64,000 bases of DNA, taken from contig NZ_CP113361.1 in NCBI RefSeq assembly GCF_026684035.1, positions 1,550,001-1,614,000 on the forward strand. Direction: 5' to 3'. The stretch is from Methanogenium organophilum (GTDB lineage: Archaea; Halobacteriota; Methanomicrobia; Methanomicrobiales; Methanomicrobiaceae). The notes beneath the pieces are model-generated. The model saw only the letters and a program-made list of their open reading frames with translations. It did no database searches and was not told where the DNA came from. A program made the translations under genes and the position numbers. This document shows, one piece after another, positions 29,888 through 43,496 of the stretch (positions within the stretch are counted from its first letter, which is position 1; every line of letters begins with the position of its first letter).

Positions 29888-29948
29888 GTCCGGTGCGGAG
29901 ACTATTGCACCTGATAATGTGTGGTATACTTCAGGGGAAATGATTTAT

Positions 29949-32900
29949 ATGAGTATGGTTGACTTGGTTAACAAAAAGGGTCTGCCCTTCCTTTTTGCAC
30001 TTCTTCTTGTGTTAGTAGTATGTGCCGTACCGGTAACTGCTGCTGCCTCAACCGAGGTGACGGTGCAGAAAATAGCGGCAGACGGCACGACCGTCCTTGA
30101 TGAGAGGACGATCAGTGCCACAGAGATGGAAGCGACTCTCCCCATCATGGGAGACGGAACAACGCACTACTATGGGCATGGCCCTACTTTTAATCCTGAC
30201 AATCTCTGGGATGAAGCTGAGGAGATTAACTGGGAAGATAAGGACTCCGGTGCTGTCAGGGGTACTGACATTAAAGACCTCTGCGATCTGGTTGGTGGTG
30301 CCAATGCCGGTGAGACCATTCAGATTGGAGAATGGATGGGCACGTACATGGGATATTCAAAGACGTTTCCATACGAAAATGTGTATTCACCTGATGCCCG
30401 TCAGGGTCAGATTGTGCTTACCTGGGAGACGAACGGCGATTCTGTGAATGACGGGTCATATAGTGATGGGATGCGTACGGTATTCTTCGCCGACACTTCA
30501 TCAAATCCGCAGGGAAAACATGTCTATGGTACATGGGATATGCATGAGACACTATCTGAGGAGTATTGGCACTTTTTCAGTTCCGATGGAGTAGATTATC
30601 CCGCGACAACAGGACTGTACGTAAAGTGGGTCAATATGATCCGGATTTATTCAGATGATCCTGCTCCTGTTAATGTTTACGATGGCAGTGTCACGCTTCC
30701 GGATGGGACCTTCTCCTGGACGGATTCCAAGGGAGACTCCTATGACATCAGCTGTCAGACACCTCTTGGCGCCCTTGATGCTGCTGCAGAGAGTGGTGAA
30801 TTTACCTATGAAGGGACGTGGAAAACGAACATTAATGGCGCTGTTTTGGATAATGTTCTTTCAAACGGTGACTGGTATAACTATACCGAGACGCACGGAT
30901 GGAATTATCAGCTGAATGGTGAGTACATCAATTACTGGTCCGCCACTGATGGCATCTCTGCAAAAGCGCTTTCAGATGGCGATACACTGGTATTCTACTA
31001 TGGTCCGCAGGACGACACCACGACCGAGAATGCAACGGCTCTCATCACGATTGATGTAAATATTGGTGGTGCAGGTCCGGTACAGGTCTATGACGGTAGT
31101 GTCACGCTTCCGGATGGGACCTTCTCCTGGACGGATTCCAAGGGAGACTCCTATGACATCAGCTGTCAGACACCTCTTGGCGCCCTTGATGCTGCTGCAG
31201 AGAGTGGTGAATTTACCTATGAAGGGACGTGGAAAACGAATATTAATGGCGCTGTTTTGGATAATGTTCTTTCAAACGGTGACTGGTATAACTATACCGA
31301 GACGCACGGATGGAATTATCAGCTGAATGGTGAGTACATCAATTACTGGTCCTCCACTGATGGCATCTCTGCAAAAGCGCTTTCAGATGGTGATACACTG
31401 GTATTCTACTATGGCCCGCAGGATGACACCACAATCGTCAATGCAACAGCTCTCATCACGATTGATGTAAATATTGGTGGTGTAGGGCCGGTACAAGTCT
31501 ATGACGGTAGTGTCACGCTTGCAGATGGTAGCTTCTCCTGGACGGATTCCAATGGAGACTCATATGATATCACCTGTCAGACACCTCTTGGCGCCCTTGA
31601 TGCTGCTGCAGAGAGTGGTGAATTTACCTATGAAGGGACGTGGAAAACGAACATTAATGGCGCTGTTTTGGATAATGTTCTTTCAGATAGCACCTGGTTC
31701 AACTATAGCGATGACGATGTTGGATGGAATTATCAGCTGAATGGTGAGTACATCAATTACTGGTCCCCCACTGATGGCATCTCTGCAAAAGCGCTTTCAG
31801 ATGGCGATACACTGGTATTCTACTATGGTCCGCAGGACGACACCACGACCGAGAATGCAACCGCTCTCATCACAATTGATGTTTCGATTCCGGGCAACAC
31901 GCCTACCGGCGCGGTAGACGTCCTTTATGAGGGTTCAGTCGAGCTCTCAGATGGTACGTTCACCTGGGATGGCCATGATATCGCAGAGATGACCCCGCAT
32001 GGTGCGCTTGAAGGAGCATCAGACATTGCCGGGTTTGAGTATGTCGGCTTCTGGAGTGGTGATAAGAATACTGCAGCAGTTGATAACATCGGAAGTGGAG
32101 ATACCTGGTATAATTATACAGAAATTGATGGAGTTCAGTATGCCTGGAACTACCAGATCAACGGTGTCTACCAGTACTACTGGTCTGACACAACCGGCAT
32201 CTCAAACAATGTGATTGAAGACGGTGACTACGTAGAATTCTACTATGGACCAAAGGAAAGCGAGACACTTGAGGATGCTGAAGCAGTTATCCGCATCTGG
32301 GTGAACCCGGAAGAACCAATTGGTCCTGTTGATGTCATATACGAAGGTTCCGTCCAACTTGGCGATGGCACGTTCACCTGGGACGGCCATGATATCTCAG
32401 AGATGACCCCACATGGTGCGCTTGAAGCAGCATCAGACATTGCCGGGTTTGAGTATGTCGGCTTCTGGAGTGGTGATAAGAATACTGCAGCAGTTGATAA
32501 CATCGGAAGTGGAGATACCTGGTATAACTATACAGAAATCGATGGAGTTCAGTATGCATGGAACTACCAGCTCAACGGTGTCTACCAGTACTACTGGTCT
32601 GACACAACCGGTATCTCCAACAACGTCATTGAGAACGGGGACTATGTAGAGTTCTACTATGGCCCAAAGTCAGATGAAACAACGGATAATGCAACTGCTG
32701 TCATCCGGATGCGTGTGTCTGATGGTAGCGGCCCCACACCGGGTGAGGACTGGGAGATCACCGTCATCAACGGTGATTGCACGTTCACCGTAGACAAGGC
32801 GTACTTTGAATCAGGCGTGGCATGTGGTCACGTAGCATCGTACACGGACGACGATGGCACATGGGCCGGTATGCCGCTCTACTTCCTCGTGGGTCTTGTA

Positions 32901-35900
32901 GATGACGATGTTGAACATGGGCCCGGGGCCTTCAACCGCGAACTGGCGGCGGCGGGCTATTCGGTTGAGGTGACTGCATCCGACGGCTACTCCATCAACT
33001 TCGAATCCACGGATATCGCGGACAATGACAACATCTTTGCCGCAAACACGCTCAATGGTGCTGAACTCCCTGCGACCATCGGCGATAACAAAACCTGCTG
33101 GCCGCTCCGGATGTCCGGGTCAGAAGTGGTTGCAGGAAAACTCGTCGGCGGTATCGCCACCATTGAACTCATTGGCGTCCCCGAGCCGTCCGCCGGCTGG
33201 GAGCTTGGCGTCAACGGTATCATATCTGACAAGGTGACCGAAGCAGAGTTCAATGACTTCTGCATGCACGCCGTCACCTGGACCGACGGCAACGGCGATG
33301 TCTGGGAAGGTGTCCCGCTCTGGGTCATTGCCGCTGTTTCAGACAACTATGAATCGACCACGCACTGGACCTTCGATGACGCGGCGGCAGCTGAAGGCTA
33401 CACTGTCCGCATCACTGCAGGCGATGGATTCAATAAAACATTTGCCAGTGCCGACATGGCACGATCAGACGACTACATCCTTGCAAGCGTCTGCAACGAC
33501 GAACCTCTCTCCCGTGAGGGCAACCCCTCTCCGTATCCCCTGCGGCTCGTGGGACCAGCGGTCTGGAACAATGACAGTGGGTCATTCACCGGCTCAGCTA
33601 TCTCGAACATTACCACCATCGACCTCGTCGAACTGATCCCCCCCGAACCGGCAGAGGGTTCCTGGAACCTCCTGACGAAAGGTATCATAACGAGTGTCAT
33701 CACCGAGGAATTCTTCGAACAGGCACTTGTCTGCCACCACACGCAGACCTGGATGAATGAAGAGACCGGTGAACTATGGAGTGGTATTCCGCTCTGGATC
33801 CTTGCCGGATGGGTCGACGACCGCACTCCGCATGGCTCAGACGGGTTCAACGACGCCGTCGCCCTTGCAGGCTACACGGTCATCGTCACCGCAGAGGACG
33901 GATACTCCAAGAGTCTCCCGAGTTCCCTTATAGCACGGAATAATAATCTCATCGTTGCAAACACCCTGAACGGATCGCCGCTCGAAGACAGCTTCCCGCT
34001 GCGTCTTGTCGGCCCTGACCTGCCGGAGGCAAGCTTCGGCGTCGGCAACATTGCAAAGATCGAGCTGACCGACTTCTGCGAACCGGAAGGATCAATTCCG
34101 CTAACCATCGTCAAGTACGCAGATGACGGTGTCACCGAACTTGCGAACGTTACCGTCACCTGGGACTGGATGGCGGATAACATGCCGGTATATGGCGACG
34201 GAGTTACCGAATACAAATTCGAGGGTCTCTGCTTCCCGCCGAATGATCCGTGGGACATGAACGAGACCTATCCGGGTGGCTTCAAGATCAGCGAGAAGAT
34301 AAAAGGCACCTCTATCCGTGAGCTCTGTGAGCTTGCAGGTGGGATGGACTCCGGTACGGAGATCAAGTTCGTTGCAACAGACGGGTGGACCAGCAAACTC
34401 TCGTACGATGTCATCTATGAACCGGCCGATTGTGTCGGCGAACCTGTCCTTGCATGGTATAGCACCGACTGGGGCGGCCCGATGCCCGCCTACAGTGACG
34501 GGTTCCGTATCTTCTTTATAACAGACGATGCCATCTTCGGCCAGCGGGATATGTATGAGGGCATTCCCTTCCAGTACTGGCACTACAACTCCGGTCTTCC
34601 GTCCTGTGCGGGCCTCTCCGCAAAACTGGTGACCCGCATCGAGCTGACGACCTATGCAGATCCGATGTGGAACCTTACGGCACTTGGTGCTATCCCTGCG
34701 GAACTCTCGAAGGGATTCTTCGAGGGTGCAATGGGCTGTACGATGTCCGGCAACCACAAGGCGACTTACACCGACACCTCCGGCAATACCTGGGAAGGTA
34801 TGCCGCTCTGGTTGATCTGCGGATATGTTGATGACGACAATCCGCATGTCGGTAAGTCATACAACGAGACACTCGCTGAAGAGGGCTATGATATCCATAT
34901 CATCGCCGAAGATGGTTTCGAGACGGTCATTGACAGCCGGAATACCATCAAAAACAACAACTACATCATTGCAAACACCCTGAACGGCCAACTGATGCGG
35001 CCGGATGACGGAAACGGCTGGCCGCTGCGCCTGGTCGGTCCGAATGTCACCGCCCATTATGACGGAGTGAAGGGTGTCAGGAACATCGTAAAGATCATCC
35101 TGGATCTCCCCTATGCGCCGGATATGTACTCCGGCACAGTAACGGCAGAATGGGGCGACATCGCGGCAGGTGCCCCGGTGCAGGCATTCATCGGCAGCAT
35201 TGCAGCCGGAACCGGTGTGATGGCTGACACCAATGTGTATGCAACCGAAGGTGTCCCCTTTGCGGTCACCGGTACTCAGTACCTGGTAGGTGAACCGATC
35301 ACCTTCATCGTGGACGGTGTGGAGGCGCTTGAGCACCCGACATTTATGGGCGCTCAGACAGTCGCCCTCGACCTGACCTTCCCAATCGGCAGCCTGCCTG
35401 TTGGCGAAGAGGACTGTGACGGTGTGCCACCCTGTGTGGAGGTCGTCGATGAGAATGTCACTGTTGACCTTACCGGTGGCAATGTAGATGTCGATGGATC
35501 CAACATCGCAATATTCCCCGCCGGCAATGGCTGGGAGAGCATGCTCATTGAGACAAGCGGTGTAACAGAAAATGCGACCGCTGCAACCGGTGGCGTTACC
35601 GGTGTTGTTGCAACAGGTATTCCGGTATCAGGCATAATTCCTGAAGTTGGAAATGTAACTGCTGGATTTATGGTCAACCTGACTGGAATGCCAGGAAATA
35701 ACGCATCTATCACCTCAATGATATCAAAGGAGCCCTCATCTGAGATGCTTTCGTACTTCCAGATTGCTGCATCAGAAGAGGGTGTAGGTATCACAGATGT
35801 GGCCTACACGCTTAACATCCAGAAATCCGGAATTACCAATGGTGGCGACATCACCAGTGCGGTCATCCGGATGGCAGTGACGCCTGAGTGGGTCAATGCC

Positions 35901-36938
35901 CACGGTGGAATGAATGCAATCCGGATCATCCGCCATGGTGAGGAAGGACTCACTGAAGTGCTCGAGACGGTCTTTGCCGGCTATGATGTAGACGGTCTGA
36001 TGATATTTGCTGCTGATTCACCCAATGGCCTCTCGCTCTTTGGTATGGCAGCAGTCGCAACAGCATCCTATGGTGACAGTGATGACTCCGGATGGGTGCC
36101 GACTACCACCCCGACACCTGAAATCACCAAACCGGGAACGGTTCCTGAGTATGCGATCATCTCCTCAGCGGTGACCTTCAGCACGGCTGATGGAACAAAG
36201 ACGTTCTCCATCGACCGCCGCGTTGCAGAAGCAAACGATGCATCTGTTGTCATCGTCGGTAAGGATGTGCAGATCCGCATGCCGAACGGAACGCTTCACA
36301 TTGAGGCCACCGGTATTTCCGAAGATGGCAATCTCATCTCCGGTGACGTCACCCGTGTATTCTATGAGGCGAATCCTGTGACTGCCACACTGAATGGCAT
36401 TGGTGGTATCACAGGTGGCATCACGCTTGACCTCCTTGTTGTGCCCACCGCAGATGACGAGATGCGCATCTATCTTTCCGGAGACGTGCCTGCATCGGTC
36501 AAAAACGGTCTGAAACAGGCAGCAATATCTACCGGAAAGATTGCGGGTGACGTGGCGTTTATCATGCCGCTCTCCTTCTCAACTCCTATAGCAGGCAGTG
36601 CAACCGTGACCCTCACGGCCCCCTCACTCTGGGTTGAGAGCAGCGGCGGGGCTGGTAATGTGATGGTTGCCGGCTACCGGTCCGACGGTACAGCAGTCCT
36701 GCTTCCGACGACAGGCACAAGTGAAGGTGTATTCACTGCAGAATCTCCTGTACTCTATGATGGCTACGGTCTTGTTGCAGTCAGTGCGGCAGAGACCGAA
36801 GACGTGGTGACGACACCTGCACCAACTGCTACCCCGGATGAAGCAACGCCGACTGCATCAGGCAGCATCTTCACCACCCTTGCACTCATTTGTGCAGTCT
36901 TCGGCATTGCCGGATATGCGGCAATGAAGAAGAGATAA
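29949..36938 (+). CDS. Giant modular cell-surface protein with transcobalamin-like and other repeats
   Basis: About 2,330 residues begin MSMVDLVNKKG, then a signal segment (LPFLFALLLVLVVCAVPVTAAA). After an N-terminal module of about 200 residues come five DUF4430/transcobalamin-like modules of about 137 residues, each with SDGTFTW or ADGSFSW, GALDAA or GALEAA, WYNYTE, WNYQLNGEY and YYGP. The first three and last two are nearly identical within each group. Four modules of another type follow (AGMPLYFLVGLVDDD, GVPLWVIAAVSD, GIPLWILAGWVDD, GMPLWLICGYVDD, each ending near PLRLVGP). A second copy of the N-terminal module lies at about 34.1-34.65 kb. The C-terminal half is beta-rich, with a Thr/Pro linker, one membrane helix and KKR at the end. 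It is probably a long stalk anchored at the membrane; its ligand is unknown. Starts at 29940 and 29955 are also possible. Confidence 0.88.
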   Translation: MSMVDLVNKKGLPFLFALLLVLVVCAVPVTAAASTEVTVQKIAADGTTVLDERTISATEMEATLPIMGDGTTHYYGHGPTFNPDNLWDEAEEINWEDKDSGAVRGTDIKDLCDLVGGANAGETIQIGEWMGTYMGYSKTFPYENVYSPDARQGQIVLTWETNGDSVNDGSYSDGMRTVFFADTSSNPQGKHVYGTWDMHETLSEEYWHFFSSDGVDYPATTGLYVKWVNMIRIYSDDPAPVNVYDGSVTLPDGTFSWTDSKGDSYDISCQTPLGALDAAAESGEFTYEGTWKTNINGAVLDNVLSNGDWYNYTETHGWNYQLNGEYINYWSATDGISAKALSDGDTLVFYYGPQDDTTTENATALITIDVNIGGAGPVQVYDGSVTLPDGTFSWTDSKGDSYDISCQTPLGALDAAAESGEFTYEGTWKTNINGAVLDNVLSNGDWYNYTETHGWNYQLNGEYINYWSSTDGISAKALSDGDTLVFYYGPQDDTTIVNATALITIDVNIGGVGPVQVYDGSVTLADGSFSWTDSNGDSYDITCQTPLGALDAAAESGEFTYEGTWKTNINGAVLDNVLSDSTWFNYSDDDVGWNYQLNGEYINYWSPTDGISAKALSDGDTLVFYYGPQDDTTTENATALITIDVSIPGNTPTGAVDVLYEGSVELSDGTFTWDGHDIAEMTPHGALEGASDIAGFEYVGFWSGDKNTAAVDNIGSGDTWYNYTEIDGVQYAWNYQINGVYQYYWSDTTGISNNVIEDGDYVEFYYGPKESETLEDAEAVIRIWVNPEEPIGPVDVIYEGSVQLGDGTFTWDGHDISEMTPHGALEAASDIAGFEYVGFWSGDKNTAAVDNIGSGDTWYNYTEIDGVQYAWNYQLNGVYQYYWSDTTGISNNVIENGDYVEFYYGPKSDETTDNATAVIRMRVSDGSGPTPGEDWEITVINGDCTFTVDKAYFESGVACGHVASYTDDDGTWAGMPLYFLVGLVDDDVEHGPGAFNRELAAAGYSVEVTASDGYSINFESTDIADNDNIFAANTLNGAELPATIGDNKTCWPLRMSGSEVVAGKLVGGIATIELIGVPEPSAGWELGVNGIISDKVTEAEFNDFCMHAVTWTDGNGDVWEGVPLWVIAAVSDNYESTTHWTFDDAAAAEGYTVRITAGDGFNKTFASADMARSDDYILASVCNDEPLSREGNPSPYPLRLVGPAVWNNDSGSFTGSAISNITTIDLVELIPPEPAEGSWNLLTKGIITSVITEEFFEQALVCHHTQTWMNEETGELWSGIPLWILAGWVDDRTPHGSDGFNDAVALAGYTVIVTAEDGYSKSLPSSLIARNNNLIVANTLNGSPLEDSFPLRLVGPDLPEASFGVGNIAKIELTDFCEPEGSIPLTIVKYADDGVTELANVTVTWDWMADNMPVYGDGVTEYKFEGLCFPPNDPWDMNETYPGGFKISEKIKGTSIRELCELAGGMDSGTEIKFVATDGWTSKLSYDVIYEPADCVGEPVLAWYSTDWGGPMPAYSDGFRIFFITDDAIFGQRDMYEGIPFQYWHYNSGLPSCAGLSAKLVTRIELTTYADPMWNLTALGAIPAELSKGFFEGAMGCTMSGNHKATYTDTSGNTWEGMPLWLICGYVDDDNPHVGKSYNETLAEEGYDIHIIAEDGFETVIDSRNTIKNNNYIIANTLNGQLMRPDDGNGWPLRLVGPNVTAHYDGVKGVRNIVKIILDLPYAPDMYSGTVTAEWGDIAAGAPVQAFIGSIAAGTGVMADTNVYATEGVPFAVTGTQYLVGEPITFIVDGVEALEHPTFMGAQTVALDLTFPIGSLPVGEEDCDGVPPCVEVVDENVTVDLTGGNVDVDGSNIAIFPAGNGWESMLIETSGVTENATAATGGVTGVVATGIPVSGIIPEVGNVTAGFMVNLTGMPGNNASITSMISKEPSSEMLSYFQIAASEEGVGITDVAYTLNIQKSGITNGGDITSAVIRMAVTPEWVNAHGGMNAIRIIRHGEEGLTEVLETVFAGYDVDGLMIFAADSPNGLSLFGMAAVATASYGDSDDSGWVPTTTPTPEITKPGTVPEYAIISSAVTFSTADGTKTFSIDRRVAEANDASVVIVGKDVQIRMPNGTLHIEATGISEDGNLISGDVTRVFYEANPVTATLNGIGGITGGITLDLLVVPTADDEMRIYLSGDVPASVKNGLKQAAISTGKIAGDVAFIMPLSFSTPIAGSATVTLTAPSLWVESSGGAGNVMVAGYRSDGTAVLLPTTGTSEGVFTAESPVLYDGYGLVAVSAAETEDVVTTPAPTATPDEATPTASGSIFTTLALICAVFGIAGYAAMKKR
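30675..31898 (+). repeat. Three tandem copies, period 411 bp, inside the giant gene
   Basis: Copies begin at about 30675, 31086 and 31497, exactly 411 bases (137 codons) apart. Copies 1 and 2 differ by only a few bases over more than 350, including synonymous positions; copy 3 is slightly more diverged at its edges. Such DNA-level identity means recent duplication or gene conversion. Confidence 0.9.
31920..32720 (+). repeat. Two tandem copies, period 414 bp, inside the giant gene
   Basis: Copies begin at about 31920 and 32334, 414 bases apart. The central 300 bases are almost identical (for example the stretches encoding HGALE, GFEYVGFWSGDKNTAAVDN and WYNYTEIDGVQYAWNYQ). They are a diverged branch of the same module as the upstream 411-bp repeats. 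Confidence 0.88.
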
Positions 36939-37113: not shown

Positions 37114-37791
37114 TTATTTCTGCTGTCTTCGTTTCCACCAGGACAGTCTGAGCCACGCAAGTTCATCCCTGACATATTCTGTCCAGGTGTGGGTCTCTTC
37201 TGCGAGCCGGGTGATCCGTGTGTCATTTTGGTCCAGCTGGCTGTCAACATGTGTGATCCAGGTGTCCACTGCTTCCATCTGTTCCTGGATGGCGGCGACC
37301 TGTCGTTCAAGCCGGTCGATACGTTCTCCGAATTCTTCCCGGTCTCTGACCATTTTCTCTTCCAGGGAGGTGATACGGTCGGCAAACCGGGAAAACTGCT
37401 GCCCCTGCATTGCAACCGTCTGAATGAGATGATTGGGAACACTACCGTGACCTGCCGTTATTTTTTGTTTCTGCACGGTATTCTCATCTTCACGTGTTTT
37501 GGAAATGGAACTGAGACGGGACGCAGGCGCGGGTTTCCCTTTGTGTTTTCTGAGCTCTTCTGAATGTCTTGTTTGCGCGGTTTTTTGTCCTGCCTGCTTC
37601 TTTTGTTCTTCATCAGCGATTGCCGTAAATACATCTGCTGCCCGTTCGTCGTATACCTGAATTCTTCCTACCTGCCGGGAAGATATCCGGTTGCCATGGC
37701 GGTGTGCGATATCATGTACCTGTTCTTCAGAGAGCCCTGTCATCTCTGCAATATCTGCTGCCTTCAGCTTTTTTCCGGGTATCTGTTTCAT
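37114..37791 (-). CDS. Putative DNA-binding coiled-coil protein
   Basis: Starting MKQIPGKKLKAADIAEMTG, this 225-residue protein has an N-terminal segment that looks like a MerR/Xre-style helix-turn-helix (ADIAEMTGLSEEQVHDIAHRHG, then RQVGRIQVYDERAADVF), a basic Lys/Arg-rich linker, and a long coiled coil (RITSLEEKMVRDREEFGERIDRLERQVAAIQEQMEAV) to the end. GAGGAG lies nine bases before the ATG at 37791 and decides the start. I do not recognise a named family; a chromosome-organising or regulatory role is a guess. Confidence 0.7.
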   Translation of the reverse strand: MKQIPGKKLKAADIAEMTGLSEEQVHDIAHRHGNRISSRQVGRIQVYDERAADVFTAIADEEQKKQAGQKTAQTRHSEELRKHKGKPAPASRLSSISKTREDENTVQKQKITAGHGSVPNHLIQTVAMQGQQFSRFADRITSLEEKMVRDREEFGERIDRLERQVAAIQEQMEAVDTWITHVDSQLDQNDTRITRLAEETHTWTEYVRDELAWLRLSWWKRRQQK

Positions 37792-37892
37792 TGATTGTCT
37801 CCTCGGGTGCATTGCACACAAAACGGCCCTGCTAACACGTTGAGTACTTCTGTACCGGTATACATTAATGCTCTCGTCCCGTATTCTGAGGT

Positions 37893-38375
37893 ATGGGGTT
37901 CTTTCACCAGGTGCTTCCCGGCATCGGGACGAAATATGAACTGGAGACAGATAGCGGAGACATTATTTCTGTCATCTTCATGGCAAACGGCAGGGTTCAG
38001 CTGTACACCCAGCCGGCACGATGTCCGGAATGTTATGCCGCAGATCTAAATCCAATGGAGACACGCCGATTGGGGAATGTCCTTACCGGCGCCATTATGG
38101 AGGCGGAGGAGGAAGGGGTGGAGATTGCATTCTCCGCTCTGGCAGATCTCAGGATTGTGGTACACACCTATATCATCGGTGCGAAACTCGCCGGAAAGGC
38201 AATCAGTGATCTCGATATCCGTTCCCGCACCGGAGTGACCGTCCTCGCGGTTTCACGTGATGGGAAAAATACGGTGAATCCGCGTCCGGATTTCAGATTT
38301 ATTTCGGGAGATGCTGTTGTCGTTATCGGAGAATCCGACCAGATCCGTGCATTTGAGCAGGAGTTTATGGAGTAA
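37893..38375 (+). CDS. TrkA-C (RCK-C) domain protein, KhtT-like regulator of the K+/H+ antiporter
   Basis: This 160-residue protein has an N-terminal domain with a CxxC (ARCPECYAADL, C44/C47), and a C-terminal TrkA-C domain (about 75-160): KLAGKAISDLDIRSRTGVTVLAVSRDG and FISGDAVVVIGESDQIRAFEQEF. KhtT-type proteins gate a partner antiporter in response to ligand or ionic state. The antiporter gene starts five bases downstream, and TGAGGT precedes this ATG, so the pair is an operon. The CxxC is not a typical feature and might give redox or metal sensing. Confidence 0.85.
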   Translation: MGFFHQVLPGIGTKYELETDSGDIISVIFMANGRVQLYTQPARCPECYAADLNPMETRRLGNVLTGAIMEAEEEGVEIAFSALADLRIVVHTYIIGAKLAGKAISDLDIRSRTGVTVLAVSRDGKNTVNPRPDFRFISGDAVVVIGESDQIRAFEQEFME

Positions 38376-38380
38376 ACCGG

Positions 38381-39493
38381 ATGGAAGGAATTGCCGTTGC
38401 ACTGGCAGTATGTGTAGGAGTGGCACTCATTTGCCGCCGATATGCTATTCCGCCCATTCCCTTTTATATCATCACTGGTCTGCTCTTAGGGACTGCGGGC
38501 CTTGGTGTTGTGCATTCGTCTGAGGTTTCTGAATGGATCGCCCACATGGGTCTCTTGTTCCTGCTCTTCACGATGGGTCTTCATCTTCACCCGGGTGAGG
38601 TTGCGAAGCGGCGCAGCTCGTTTCTGAAGGCAGGAATTATTGATCTCTGCATTAATTTTTCTGCTGGGTTTGCGGTCGCATTTATCATTGGGTTGCCACT
38701 CTATGATGCGGTGGTGCTCGCAGGTGCATTTTATATTTCAAGTTCCGCAATCGCGCTCTCATCGCTTATTGATAACCGTAAACTTGGGTTTCGGGAATCT
38801 GATACGGTTATCTGGCTGATGGTCTTTGAGGATATTATACTCGTTGCACTGCTGATTATGTTAGCCTCACAGGACGTGTCCCCCCTTCGCACAATAGGAA
38901 TTATCCTCTGTGTGGCAGTGGCTGCCTTTACCTTTGCATGGAAATTCAGGGGTCATCTCCACCAGTTCTTTGCACGGGAAGATGAACTTCCAATACTGGT
39001 AGTTTTTCTCAGTGTTGTGCTCGCCGTCGCCATCGCTGGTGTGACCGGTGTACCTGACAGCCTGCTTGTCATCATTCTTGGTTCAGCCATATCACTTGTC
39101 GCATCAGAACGTGCAGAAGCGGTCGCCCGCCCGTTCAGAGAGGTGTTCCTGGTTGTATTTTTTGTCTTTTTTGGGATATCTGTCAGTTTTTCCGGTGCAC
39201 CATCGCTGATTCTCCTCGCATCTGTGATTATTCTTGCAATTGTCACCAAGTTCTGTTCAGGGGTTTTAATCGGGAAAGTTATTCATGGAAGAGCTCTCTC
39301 CGGAATTGATATATGGGCAGATACGACATCACGGGGAGAATTTTCTATTCTTCTGGCACTGTTATACGGGTCATCTGCTGTCGTCCCTGTCGTTGCTGCC
39401 CTCGTGGTTGTAACATCATGTGTTGGTTCATTCACCGGAAAATATAGCATACGTATCCGGCGGTGGTTTGGGGGTATCACTGCCGGAAAATAA
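38381..39493 (+). CDS. CPA2-family K+/H+ antiporter (KefB/KhtU-like)
   Basis: This 370-residue membrane protein has about 12 hydrophobic segments and typical CPA2 sequence: YAIPPIPFYIITGLLLG, ISSSAIALSSLIDNRKLG and DTTSRGEFSILLALLYG. There is no fused RCK domain; the regulatory module is the separate protein just upstream. It probably exports K+ (or Na+) in exchange for protons to control pH and turgor. GGAG lies 13 bases before the ATG. Confidence 0.88.
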   Translation: MEGIAVALAVCVGVALICRRYAIPPIPFYIITGLLLGTAGLGVVHSSEVSEWIAHMGLLFLLFTMGLHLHPGEVAKRRSSFLKAGIIDLCINFSAGFAVAFIIGLPLYDAVVLAGAFYISSSAIALSSLIDNRKLGFRESDTVIWLMVFEDIILVALLIMLASQDVSPLRTIGIILCVAVAAFTFAWKFRGHLHQFFAREDELPILVVFLSVVLAVAIAGVTGVPDSLLVIILGSAISLVASERAEAVARPFREVFLVVFFVFFGISVSFSGAPSLILLASVIILAIVTKFCSGVLIGKVIHGRALSGIDIWADTTSRGEFSILLALLYGSSAVVPVVAALVVVTSCVGSFTGKYSIRIRRWFGGITAGK

Positions 39494-39710
39494 TCCCGGT
39501 TACCTGCAATTTTTATTTTTATTGCAGTAGGTATCCCAGGATTAATGGGGTTTCTTTCCTGTTCGTTGTGAATAGCATGATGAGAGGGTATCAAAATATG
39601 GGGAATATCTTGCTGAATGTCTTCTTTGGGAGTGAATCTGTTACTGTTGTATGCATTTGCCTGAAATAGCGATGGCTTGTTTTGCCATTTAAATCCTACA
39701 AAATTTATTT

Positions 39711-39737
39711 ATATGGTTATTGAAGAATATACCATAT
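39711..39737. promoter_or_regulatory. 7-bp inverted repeat overlapping the TATA box of the recombinase-like gene
   Basis: ATATGGT (39711-39717) and ACCATAT (39731-39737) are exact inverted copies with 13 bases between. The left arm is the end of the TATA-like TTTATTTATATGG (39704-39716), and the right arm lies near the expected transcription start. A protein bound here would compete with TBP. Because the gene 20 bases downstream encodes a DNA-binding protein, autoregulation is plausible. Confidence 0.5.
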
Positions 39738-39756
39738 CCTCCTATGATGTGATAAT

Positions 39757-40395
39757 ATGAAACAACAGTCAGTGGTGTATCTGAACAGTCGTAAACCCGC
39801 TGATTTTGAGAAACAAAAAGTTGATATTGAAAATTTTTGCAAATATCGGTTTGAGATTGAGCGGATATTTCATGATAATCAGTCTCCTTTCATTCCTGCG
39901 TCAAATCGTTCCGAATTCATTGAAATGGTTAATTACTGTGCGGAAAAAGGCATTTCGAATATCATTTTTTATGATCTGGATACAACGCTGAAGATCCCTG
40001 ATGTTTTCATTAGTGAGCTTTCCATCGTTTTAGAAAGGGGGTATATCCCATACTGGGCCCGCGGCGATTTTATTTCAGGAAGGTATGATTCTGATGAACG
40101 GAGGGAAGCTGTAAATGCATTTTCCCGGTATCTTGAACAGTTTGCCGCCCAGAATGGTCTTGAAAATCGGATAAAAAAACGATCCGGTGTTTCCACCCGC
40201 AGGCCCGGTCGTCCGGCAGCCCTGGATGAGAAGGGGATATCTGATCTTCTGGCAGCACGGCGGTCAGGAAAGACAATTGGTGAAGTGTGCCGTATCTTTG
40301 GTGTTTCCCGTAGCACGGTGAGCAAGATCCTTCGTGATTATCCGGAACTGAAAGGAGAATGGAAGGGCCCTGTTTCTCCGGGAAAACGGAACTGA
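39757..40395 (+). CDS. Serine-recombinase-like DNA-binding protein with lost catalytic motif
   Basis: This 212-residue protein has an N-terminal part shaped like a resolvase domain (QSVVYLNSRKPADFEKQKVDIENFCK, then FYDLDTTLKIPDVFISELSIVL) and a C-terminal Hin/resolvase-type helix-turn-helix (about 150-195: RRPGRPAALDEKGISDLL, then GEVCRIFGVSRSTVSKILRD). In active enzymes the N-terminus reads Y-x-R-V-S; here it is Y8-L-N-S-R, so the Arg and the aligned Ser are gone (S11 is shifted by one), and the Arg-rich D-R-x-x-R segment is replaced by DLDTTLK. It probably binds DNA as a regulator instead of recombining. It converges with the RPA operon. Confidence 0.8.
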   Translation: MKQQSVVYLNSRKPADFEKQKVDIENFCKYRFEIERIFHDNQSPFIPASNRSEFIEMVNYCAEKGISNIIFYDLDTTLKIPDVFISELSIVLERGYIPYWARGDFISGRYDSDERREAVNAFSRYLEQFAAQNGLENRIKKRSGVSTRRPGRPAALDEKGISDLLAARRSGKTIGEVCRIFGVSRSTVSKILRDYPELKGEWKGPVSPGKRN

Positions 40396-40399
40396 TTAA

Positions 40400-40924
40400 T
40401 TAAAACAGACGATATATGCAGAAATTCTTATAGCGGTGTTCACGCTGGTCATAATCTGCGAGAATGTTTGGCCGGTTTCCCAGTTCAAGCATTCGTGAAG
40501 TAAGTGTCTCCATTCCGCAGGTACGATTAATAATTGCACGCAGCTCATCATTGACATGAAAGAGCGGCTCTTTCCCGATAGCTTCTATTGCATCTGATGG
40601 ATATGCATCAATACCAAAATATTCAAAGATTGATTCCAGCGCGATAACCCATACACGTTCGGAGATTGCTTTTTGTGCTGCCTGTTCCGCTTCCTCTTCG
40701 CTGAGGACCAGGTATGCCTGTATTCCATCGCAGTAATATGCGTGGTAGCCATAGAGTCTGCCCGTCGATTGTGTGATGCGACCCGCTGATACACCAAGGA
40801 AACTCGCCAGTATCTCCGTTTGTGATTGGGGCTCTTTTGGGTTCAGTAAATCATCACCTGGGGGGGTTGGATTGAATGCTACAGATCTGCCTGGATGTGG
40901 TCTTATAGTATCAATATGACACAC
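40400..40924 (-). CDS. Uncharacterised protein at the end of the RPA operon
   Basis: This 174-residue protein has an N-terminal, Pro-rich segment, then a region with TEILASFLGVSAGRITQSTGRLYG, reading like a small DNA- or protein-binding domain, and a C-terminal helical part (SEEEAEQAAQKAISERVWVIALESIFEYFGI). I do not recognise a family. The likely start is GTG at 40924, 14 bases after the stop of the RPA-associated gene on the same strand, so it is probably co-transcribed with the RPA genes. An alternative later start cannot be excluded. Confidence 0.55.
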   Translation of the reverse strand: MCHIDTIRPHPGRSVAFNPTPPGDDLLNPKEPQSQTEILASFLGVSAGRITQSTGRLYGYHAYYCDGIQAYLVLSEEEAEQAAQKAISERVWVIALESIFEYFGIDAYPSDAIEAIGKEPLFHVNDELRAIINRTCGMETLTSRMLELGNRPNILADYDQREHRYKNFCIYRLF

Positions 40925-40938
40925 AGGAAAAAAAGGTT

Positions 40939-41535
40939 TTAGAATGTAATCCGCTGGAGTGCATGGAGTGCCATCTGGCGGTAGGTTTCCGGGTCGTTTG
41001 CATAGAATTCCCGTGCTTTTTTGCTGTCTTCGGTCTCCCCAAAGGCATCCGCACGGTCAAGTGTCTGGGCTGCCGTTTCATCCACCCATTTCCGGTAGGT
41101 GTCCTCGTCAATCTCTGCAACCGTTTCTGCCCGAATAGAGACAAAGGTTGCACCGTCAGGAGTATTGCGTGCCTGTGCCTTTCCAACGACCGCCACCCAG
41201 GCACTCTCATCAATTCGTGAGATCTGTTGTTTTGCCTCAGGCTGGTAACTGCCGGCGTTCACAAAGAATATCCCGGTCGGGTCCTGCACACGCACCGAGT
41301 AAAATGCATTTTCGTCTCCTTTCAGCTCTTTACGTATCATCTGTCCGCAGAAAAAGAGACGGTTGGAGCGGATTCCGCTGGGAAGCATCACATAGACCGG
41401 ACTTTTCTCATCTTCCCCGTCTTTAAAGGTGAGGCGGATTTCCCGGACTTCCGCTGCAAATGCTCTGCGTGCGGGTTCACGGATATAGCGGCGTTGTGTG
41501 TTTGCAGGTGTTGTTGTTTGTGTTGGTGTACTCAT
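40939..41535 (-). CDS. RPA-associated protein (COG3390 family)
   Basis: This 198-residue protein is the partner typically encoded next to euryarchaeal RPA. It contains TQRRYIREPARRAFAAEVREIRLTF, an OB-fold segment with GDENAFYSVRVQDPTGIFFVNAGSYQPEA and a C-terminal helical part (RKWVDETAAQTL). Such proteins associate with the RPA core and help bind single-stranded DNA. The ATG overlaps the RPA stop by four bases, so expression is coupled. Confidence 0.9.
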   Translation of the reverse strand: MSTPTQTTTPANTQRRYIREPARRAFAAEVREIRLTFKDGEDEKSPVYVMLPSGIRSNRLFFCGQMIRKELKGDENAFYSVRVQDPTGIFFVNAGSYQPEAKQQISRIDESAWVAVVGKAQARNTPDGATFVSIRAETVAEIDEDTYRKWVDETAAQTLDRADAFGETEDSKKAREFYANDPETYRQMALHALQRITF

Positions 41536-43496
41536 GAGTGATCCCCTCCTGTCTGACCTTCGGCCCGGTTGATGAGCATCGCATGTTCTCCCTGGTCGTA
41601 GGTTACCAGGGCGACAGTATCGGAGTCACGGACAAGGACGGTTCCGTCAATATTCGGACCATTGCAAGAGATGTATCGTCCCATCAGACGTTCCTGGAAC
41701 TGCATGAAGACATCATCCGGCCCAAGTGGTGAATTTTCTGCAATTTCAATTGCTTTTTCAAGGGTTAGGCCTGTTACCTTTTCGACAGCTTCTCGTTGCA
41801 TGATGATATTTGTTGCAGTGATACCGTCATCAACAACACCGGTAATCCTGAGGTCATAGCGGAAATCCTGCTGCATTTCATGAACCGGGCAGAAATTCTG
41901 ACGCGAAAGTGCACGGTTGCATCCTTCAACCCTGCAGCGTTTGATCAGGCCTGACCCCGTACTCATGTGAACAACCGCACCGACAATTGTTTCATTGCGT
42001 CCGTCACTTCCGATTTCAATGTCCGCTCCTTCTTCCTCAAGAATGGTTGCCCCGGAAAGATTGAGAGAATATCGTTCGTTGTATTCCTCAACACCTGCAT
42101 AATAGATGCTGTAGACGCGGTCTTCCTCAAGTGTGATCTCCTCTGCACTCTCGTCCCTGTTCTTCCAGATGATAAATTTCATCCGGTCGGTTTCATCACC
42201 GACAAGACCGGTCTGGAGCATCCGGTCCGTTCGCACTTCCCAGTTGGTGAGCATTTTTACGCGGACGCAGGCGACCCCTGGAGTGAGGTCTGCGAGGGGG
42301 GTGACAACTGGCATCAGAGCACGGTCCTCTGCAATTGGGGTGATGGTTGTGCCGGAGTGAATCTTCATATTGGGGGCACCCCGGAATTCGTCGATGGTTG
42401 CGTTCTCCAGTCTGTACCACTTGTGTTCTTCAAGCGGTTCTGCACCTGCTTTTTCCCAGATGACAAATTCCATTGCACCGCTTGGGTCTGCGATAATACC
42501 CTTCTGTGCAATGGCAGGGCTGGGGGATGGCTGAAGGGCTACAATTTTTCCTTCGACAGTCACCCAGTCGTTTGGCTTTGCGGATCCAATCTCGCCGACG
42601 GTATCCGGACTGCCTGATGTGGTATTCAGTGATTCCGCCATTTCATCCGCTGCTGATGCCACCGTATTCCCGGTATCAGTGATTGGAGTTACTTTAGTAC
42701 CTGAATGGAGCTTGAGATTCATCTTTTCTTTAAAGCTATCAGCAACAGCCGACTCAATTCTGTACCATTTTTCTTCTTCCAGTGGTGGAAGTTCTGATTT
42801 ACTCCAGATGACAAATTCAATCGCATCAGTTGCATCTGCAATAATTCCCCGTTGTGAAATCGCAGGATTTCCCCCTTCTGATGTTTTCGTCACCTTTCCT
42901 TCAATAGTGACCCACTCATCAGGATTGAGTGATGCGATGGTTCTCAGTTCAGACGAATCTGCAGACGTACCGGTCATCCTTTCGGCAATTTTGTGCCAGT
43001 CCTGGCTGACAATCCTGCTCATCCCAGGCACCGGGACAACATTTGTACCGGAGTGTAGTTTGACATTGAGATTATCCCTGAATTCATCTGTAACACAGGA
43101 TTCAATTCTATACCATGCATTTTCTTCAAGAGCTGGTATCTGTGCCTTCTCCCAGATAACAAATTCAATGGCACCGCTTTCGTCTGCAATAATTCCCCGC
43201 TGAGCGATTGCAGGATTTCCTCCGGCAGTGACCATCACAACTTTTCCTTCAATGGTGGCCCAGTCGTTTGCCTGAAGTTCTGCGATCTGCTTTTTATCTT
43301 CTGCTTCACGTTTCGGGGTGATCTGCTGTTCACGCATCACTTCATTTGTGACCTGGCGTTCGGCGTCTTCTGCCGGGATAAGAAACTCATTGATAAGAAG
43401 GCGAAGTTTTGCCGCAATCTTTTCTGTTTCCGGCGTGCCCCCCCGTTCTTCAATTGTTCTGGAGATTCTTTCTGCTGTTTGGGTAATTTGATCCAT
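41532..43496 (-). CDS. rpa: Replication protein A, large subunit with repeated OB folds
   Basis: This 654-residue single-stranded DNA-binding protein contains three consecutive near-copies of an OB-fold module (ANDWATIEGKVVMVTAGGNPAIAQRG at about 75, SLNPDEWVTIEGKVTKTSEGG at about 190, SAKPNDWVTVEGKIVALQPS at about 300), then a fourth OB fold and a zinc-finger segment CRVEGCNRALSRQNFCPVH near residue 520. This is the multi-OB RPA architecture of Methanomicrobiales-like archaea. It carries out ssDNA protection in replication and repair. GGAGATGG precedes the ATG. It heads the minus-strand operon. Confidence 0.94.
   Translation of the reverse strand: MDQITQTAERISRTIEERGGTPETEKIAAKLRLLINEFLIPAEDAERQVTNEVMREQQITPKREAEDKKQIAELQANDWATIEGKVVMVTAGGNPAIAQRGIIADESGAIEFVIWEKAQIPALEENAWYRIESCVTDEFRDNLNVKLHSGTNVVPVPGMSRIVSQDWHKIAERMTGTSADSSELRTIASLNPDEWVTIEGKVTKTSEGGNPAISQRGIIADATDAIEFVIWSKSELPPLEEEKWYRIESAVADSFKEKMNLKLHSGTKVTPITDTGNTVASAADEMAESLNTTSGSPDTVGEIGSAKPNDWVTVEGKIVALQPSPSPAIAQKGIIADPSGAMEFVIWEKAGAEPLEEHKWYRLENATIDEFRGAPNMKIHSGTTITPIAEDRALMPVVTPLADLTPGVACVRVKMLTNWEVRTDRMLQTGLVGDETDRMKFIIWKNRDESAEEITLEEDRVYSIYYAGVEEYNERYSLNLSGATILEEEGADIEIGSDGRNETIVGAVVHMSTGSGLIKRCRVEGCNRALSRQNFCPVHEMQQDFRYDLRITGVVDDGITATNIIMQREAVEKVTGLTLEKAIEIAENSPLGPDDVFMQFQERLMGRYISCNGPNIDGTVLVRDSDTVALVTYDQGEHAMLINRAEGQTGGDHS

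Follow-up and report, generated by a model that had tools for sequence, protein, structure and literature searches.

The locus considered here raises the question of whether a gene that looks like a small serine recombinase still encodes an enzyme that cuts DNA, or whether, as an earlier note on this DNA proposed, its fold has been recycled as a repressor that controls itself. The gene lies in a 64-kb stretch of DNA, referred to as the window, and the host genome is a single contig of 2.65 Mb, with Methanogenium as its closest kin. The range assigned to the protein by the earlier note, 39704-40395, does contain an open reading frame on the plus strand (39757-40395), but it also includes the promoter of that frame. 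The features discussed below are collected in Table 1.

Table 1. The recombinase-like gene, its promoter and its downstream neighbours, in positions of the window.
Feature	Position	Strand	Basis or remark
TATA-like element, overlaps left arm	39704..39714	+	Kept in most Methanogenium congeners
Left arm ATATGGT	39711..39717	+	Exact
Right arm ACCATAT, near expected transcription start	39731..39737	+	Not conserved in congeners
Inactivated serine-recombinase-like protein, 212 aa	39757..40395	+	ORF, orthologues, fold
Serine-recombinase N-terminal fold and long helix, residues 1-132	39757..40152	+	AlphaFold, profile matches, hhalign
YLNSR, residues 8-12, in place of Y-x-R-V-S	39778..39792	+	Residue 12 R/K in 59/59
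DTTLK, residues 75-79, in place of D-R-x-x-R	39979..39993	+	R68 equivalent never Arg
Resolvase-type helix-turn-helix, residues 151-194	40207..40338	+	PF02796 E 6e-8; conserved columns
174-aa protein between RPAP and recombinase-like gene	40400..40924	-	No clear Pfam match; part of family f1
RPA-associated OB-fold protein (RPAP-like), convergent with the gene	40939..41535	-	Name inferred from context
RPA-like protein with OB folds	41532..43496	-	PF01336 E 6e-12; synteny; name inferred from context

The protein belongs by descent to the serine recombinase superfamily, since both the N-terminal fold with its long helix and the C-terminal resolvase helix-turn-helix (HTH) are present. In a Pfam search of the 212-aa frame the HTH was a good match to HTH_7 (PF02796, E 6e-8), and the Resolvase N-domain match at residues 16-75 was below threshold (21.1 bits against a Pfam cut-off of 23.3). 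The statement of the earlier note that the HTH end is kept extends to the whole family: PF02796 was matched in 42 of 42 members, the core S-R-S-T-x-S-K is invariant across families and the orthologue alignment is nearly invariant from S184 to L192. Such an invariant core fits a DNA-binding protein with a conserved target. The AlphaFold model, built from an alignment of 42 orthologues, has a pLDDT of 82.6, with N-terminal blocks mostly near or above 90, and places the long helix at residues 112-132, followed by a loose hinge and the HTH. The relative position of the domains is not fixed in the model (pTM 0.61, low-confidence hinge at 139-152). Recombinase matches among PDB structures found with Foldseek include Sin (2r0q), Tn3 (5cy1/5cy2) and gamma-delta (1gdt) as well as 3g13. 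By sequence, the family profile matches resolvases in the PDB with E values of 7e-8 to 1e-4 (N-domains 7e-8 to 1e-6), and hhalign against archaeal resolvases of the same order gives a probability of 99. Foldseek TM-scores of 0.20-0.28 to response regulators were taken as a similar domain layout and not as kinship, and a phmmer match to AAC/APH (E 0.5) was dismissed as noise.

The catalytic residues were compared in 59 unique orthologue sequences. Both motif replacements described in the earlier note, of Y-x-R-V-S and of D-R-x-x-R, are read in the protein as in Table 1. Within residues 9-14 an invariant Ser is found at no position, in any plausible register. When Tyr8 is set as the canonical Tyr, the nucleophile position (S10 of gamma-delta) is Arg or Lys in all 59 sequences; a merge of the profiles shifts the register by two, and this position is then mostly Lys or Arg, with Ser in three sequences. 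Relative to the canonical enzymes the N-terminal register could be off by as many as two residues, and the R8 equivalent depends on it. The equivalent of R68, the second active-site Arg, is lost in 59/59, and those of E118 and E124, the Glu residues of the E-helix, in all or nearly all. The expectation that alignment with resolvases would reveal loss of the Ser and the Arg is borne out for the Ser and R68. The R45 equivalent is kept in 55 of the 59, and at the place of R71 Arg or Lys stands in 57. Seven true resolvases of Methanomicrobiales carry the Y-x-R-x-S motif with the R8 and S10 equivalents, R45, R68 and the Glu residues; one of them (L124) comes from a genome that also has the inactivated gene. 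Relatives elsewhere in the phylum also read as canonical. Because the R68 and E118/E124 equivalents and an invariant Ser at residues 9-14 are lost, the comparison makes it very unlikely that the protein is an active serine recombinase.

Orthologues are present as single copies in 68 of 232 Methanomicrobiales genomes, distributed over four families. They are 36-80% identical to the protein, have 209-223 aa and lack internal stops, and the dN/dS ratios of 12 close pairs that differ (0.07-0.22) indicate purifying selection. In the gene tree they form one clade (support 100/100), grouped largely by genus and parted by a long, fully supported branch from the canonical resolvases found in the order and in the wider phylum. 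Instead of the multi-copy or sporadic spread of a mobile element, the family has a single copy per genome, vertical descent and conserved neighbours, and a search of 2.9 million viral contigs confirmed no relative. The gene is missing from several genera of the family to which the window belongs, and is thus not essential to the order. The view that a recombinase fold was reused without its catalytic function is strongly upheld by the fold and homology, the residue losses in 59/59, the selection, the fixed synteny and the single clade.

The neighbourhood suggests how the gene came to its place. An RPA-associated protein gene and/or an RPA gene lies downstream, in convergent orientation, in 27 of 32 representatives. 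On its upstream side the gene has ribK and ribB, except in Methanogenium and the genus closest to it (g9). Methanogenium has genes for a TrkA-C protein and a Na+/H+ exchanger there, which in the window (37893-39493) occupy the ribK-ribB place of other genera, so that this block was rearranged in the lineage of Methanogenium and its nearest genus. Empty loci, in which ribK-ribB face RPAP-RPA, were found in five of 14 gene-less genomes checked, from two other families (f3, f6). In these loci ribB and RPAP overlap by 21 nt at one extreme and lie about 500 nt apart at the other, and nothing resembling the gene stands between them. Since ribB faces RPA directly in several gene-less genomes, these arrangements suggest, on the simplest reading, a single ancient insertion into the ribB-RPAP interval, with some genera losing the gene afterwards.

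Some further observations concern the surroundings. The 174-aa protein of Table 1 follows RPAP in several Methanomicrobiaceae genera, also where the recombinase-like gene is missing (L183-L187). Two genomes, G120 and G119, have two RPA-RPAP pairs about 2.3 kb apart (L185/L197 and L186/L198), a tandem duplication of the RPA operon. Upstream in the window, 37114-37821 encodes a coiled-coil protein that, on weak matches only, may have an HTH at its N-terminus, and this gene is conserved upstream of the TrkA-C gene in the loci of Methanogenium and its nearest genus. The frame at 29919-36938 encodes a repetitive protein of 2339 aa with an N-terminal signal-like segment, DUF4430 repeats and a stretch resembling oxidoreductase molybdopterin-binding domains, possibly a large surface protein.

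The earlier note also saw an operator in inverted arms that cover the TATA box and the start region. The arms form an exact dyad with a spacer of 13, and the left one does overlap a TATA-like element and the right one does lie near the expected start; their span of 27 bp falls in the size range of resolvase subsites. However, the dyad is within chance for such AT-rich DNA. At spacers of 3-20 the window has 105 perfect 7+7 dyads, and such a dyad turns up in 18% of composition-matched shuffles of the AT-rich 70-nt promoter. Shuffles of the whole 64-kb window gave none with the exact dyad sequence, a test of one sequence chosen after it had been seen. Six congeners match three to six of the seven dyad positions, and among them there is no compensatory change: no pair is altered in both of its members, and pairing is the same as in reshuffled columns. 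A special conservation of the promoter, as a footprint of binding, was ruled out, since control promoters are conserved to the same degree; over the 70 nt upstream, mean identity among Methanoculleus orthologues is 0.77, compared with 0.78-0.83 for three neighbouring genes with intergenic upstream regions.

No convincing regulon emerged from searches for these arms upstream of other genes, whether by near-dyads or by the promoter block. The exact dyad is unique in the genome. Allowing up to two mismatches there are 22 sites, compared with nine for a reversed control; of the other 21, 15 fall within ORFs and six do not, and three of these six are within 150 nt upstream of an ORF. In each of four Methanogenium and four Methanoculleus genomes the complete conserved promoter block was found at a single place, the promoter of the gene itself, and outward dyads of the form ACCAT-N11-13-ATGGT are scattered. 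The core word of the arms, ACCATA (or TATGGT), behaves differently: it is over-represented within 70 nt upstream of the orthologues, with a lineage-weighted sum of 5.5, a value reached by none of 300 dinucleotide shuffles (0.66 for the shuffles), and is found in 16 of 36 family promoters compared with about two of 188 neighbouring ones, in a test made after the fact on related, non-independent sequences and with family promoters that are AT-richer than the controls. Its position varies between genera, some copies overlap TATA-like AT-rich DNA, and in two species the arms are reversed (ACCAT-N12-ATGGT), which argues against one conserved operator. The recurrence of the word makes self-repression possible and may serve as a lead.

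In view of these results, several functions can be considered. In the first place the protein could repress itself, a dimer on ATATGGT-N13-ACCATAT blocking access of TBP/TFB to the TATA box and start and thereby limiting its own level. The exactness and span of the dyad and the frequency of ACCATA in orthologue promoters are compatible with this, and there is precedent in TnpR of Tn3, which represses its own promoter and that of the transposase (PMC7157771). Yet the HTH core is invariant across families and the dyad is not; its arms are not conserved in the genus, and chance, the equal conservation of control promoters and the wandering, partly TATA-like half-site word weigh against it as well. 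Self-repression on these arms, as the earlier note described it, we consider rather unlikely. Binding of the protein to its own promoter in some form is a slightly broader proposition, although also one that we would sooner doubt than accept. The protein could, alternatively, have a non-regulatory role in DNA architecture, in synapsis or bridging, in chromosome structure, or together with RPA at single-stranded DNA. At accessory sites serine resolvases can play a purely structural part, which in Sin involves HTH-HTH contacts (PMC2428073), and the gene adjoins RPA in most genomes. However, it is convergent with RPA and not co-transcribed, and gene-less loci keep the rest of the gene order, so the RPA link may reflect only the site of insertion; an architectural role appears rather improbable.

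Two further readings would deny the protein a purely DNA-binding function. It might still recombine DNA with another nucleophile, S/T11 or Y8, for which the invariance of Y8, the Thr or Ser at residue 11 in 56 of 59 orthologues and the largely kept R45 and R71 equivalents could be adduced. Y8, however, is the conserved Tyr of ordinary recombinases in the Tyr-aligned register, residue 11 is Ala in three orthologues, R68 and the E-helix Glu residues are missing, and the single copy with conserved synteny is unlike a mobile element, which leaves very little room for such an enzyme. The recombinase-family origin and the catalytic loss would also fit a decaying, functionless remnant of a mobile element, a reading already contradicted by the dN/dS values and by the intact frames of uniform length in four families, and one to which we give practically no credence.

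The protein is accordingly best described as an inactivated, domesticated small serine recombinase that is probably a dimeric, sequence-specific DNA-binding regulator, as far as comparative sequence and model data can tell. The probable course is that a gene of the resolvase/invertase type entered the space separating ribB from the RPA operon in an ancestor shared by several families of Methanomicrobiales; its catalytic residues then disappeared, and it was retained as a vertically inherited host gene. The former catalytic domain could serve for dimerisation and as a scaffold for the DNA arm, while the C-terminal HTH would read a half-site. The disarmed protein may thus regulate transcription or shape DNA locally without cutting it. 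The computations establish the homology and fold, the catalytic losses, the purifying selection, the single copy, the synteny and the empty loci; the dimer, the DNA target, the regulatory role and any self-control are what we infer from them.

Among known systems, the Tn3/gamma-delta resolvases (5cy1, 1gdt) share domain order, fold and resolvase HTH with the protein, but here the catalytic Ser, R68 and Glu residues are lost and the gene is a single-copy chromosomal one; no transposase or res array was seen near it. The best structural match is the Sin regulatory complex (2r0q), in which a serine recombinase dimer binds DNA at a regulatory site and does not cut it (PMC2428073), although Sin itself is an active enzyme at site I. 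The canonical small resolvases of Methanomicrobiales and their relatives (L119-L125, L171-L182) are homologous over fold and HTH but have intact catalytic motifs and a sporadic distribution. Host takeover of a mobile-element DNA-binding protein, as proposed here, is also described for Ner/SfsB, in the consulted passages of a review of host-recruited mobile-element proteins (PMC8987985); the regulators treated in those passages are of the Xre or RHH type, not of the recombinase fold, and no recombinase-derived transcription factor is named there. In the open-access literature searched, no description was found of a catalytically dead serine recombinase as a host regulator.

Host capture of mobile-element DNA-binding proteins is well known for small HTH and RHH repressors. 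Databases may label genes such as this one 'resolvase', which would mislead scans for mobile elements. More tentatively, and with the balance still somewhat against it, the orthologues might be archaeal transcription factors, forming a family at the level of an order and derived from an entire serine recombinase whose dead catalytic domain serves as a dimerisation scaffold; the family would go back to a single, dated insertion with known empty sites and control a small set of genes that includes its own. Insertion-free loci are on hand for comparison with the gene-bearing ones. If the proposed role is true, this family would offer a clear example of how an enzyme becomes a DNA-binding protein: a full serine recombinase, catalytically disarmed, fixed in the genome and retained in several families of archaea.
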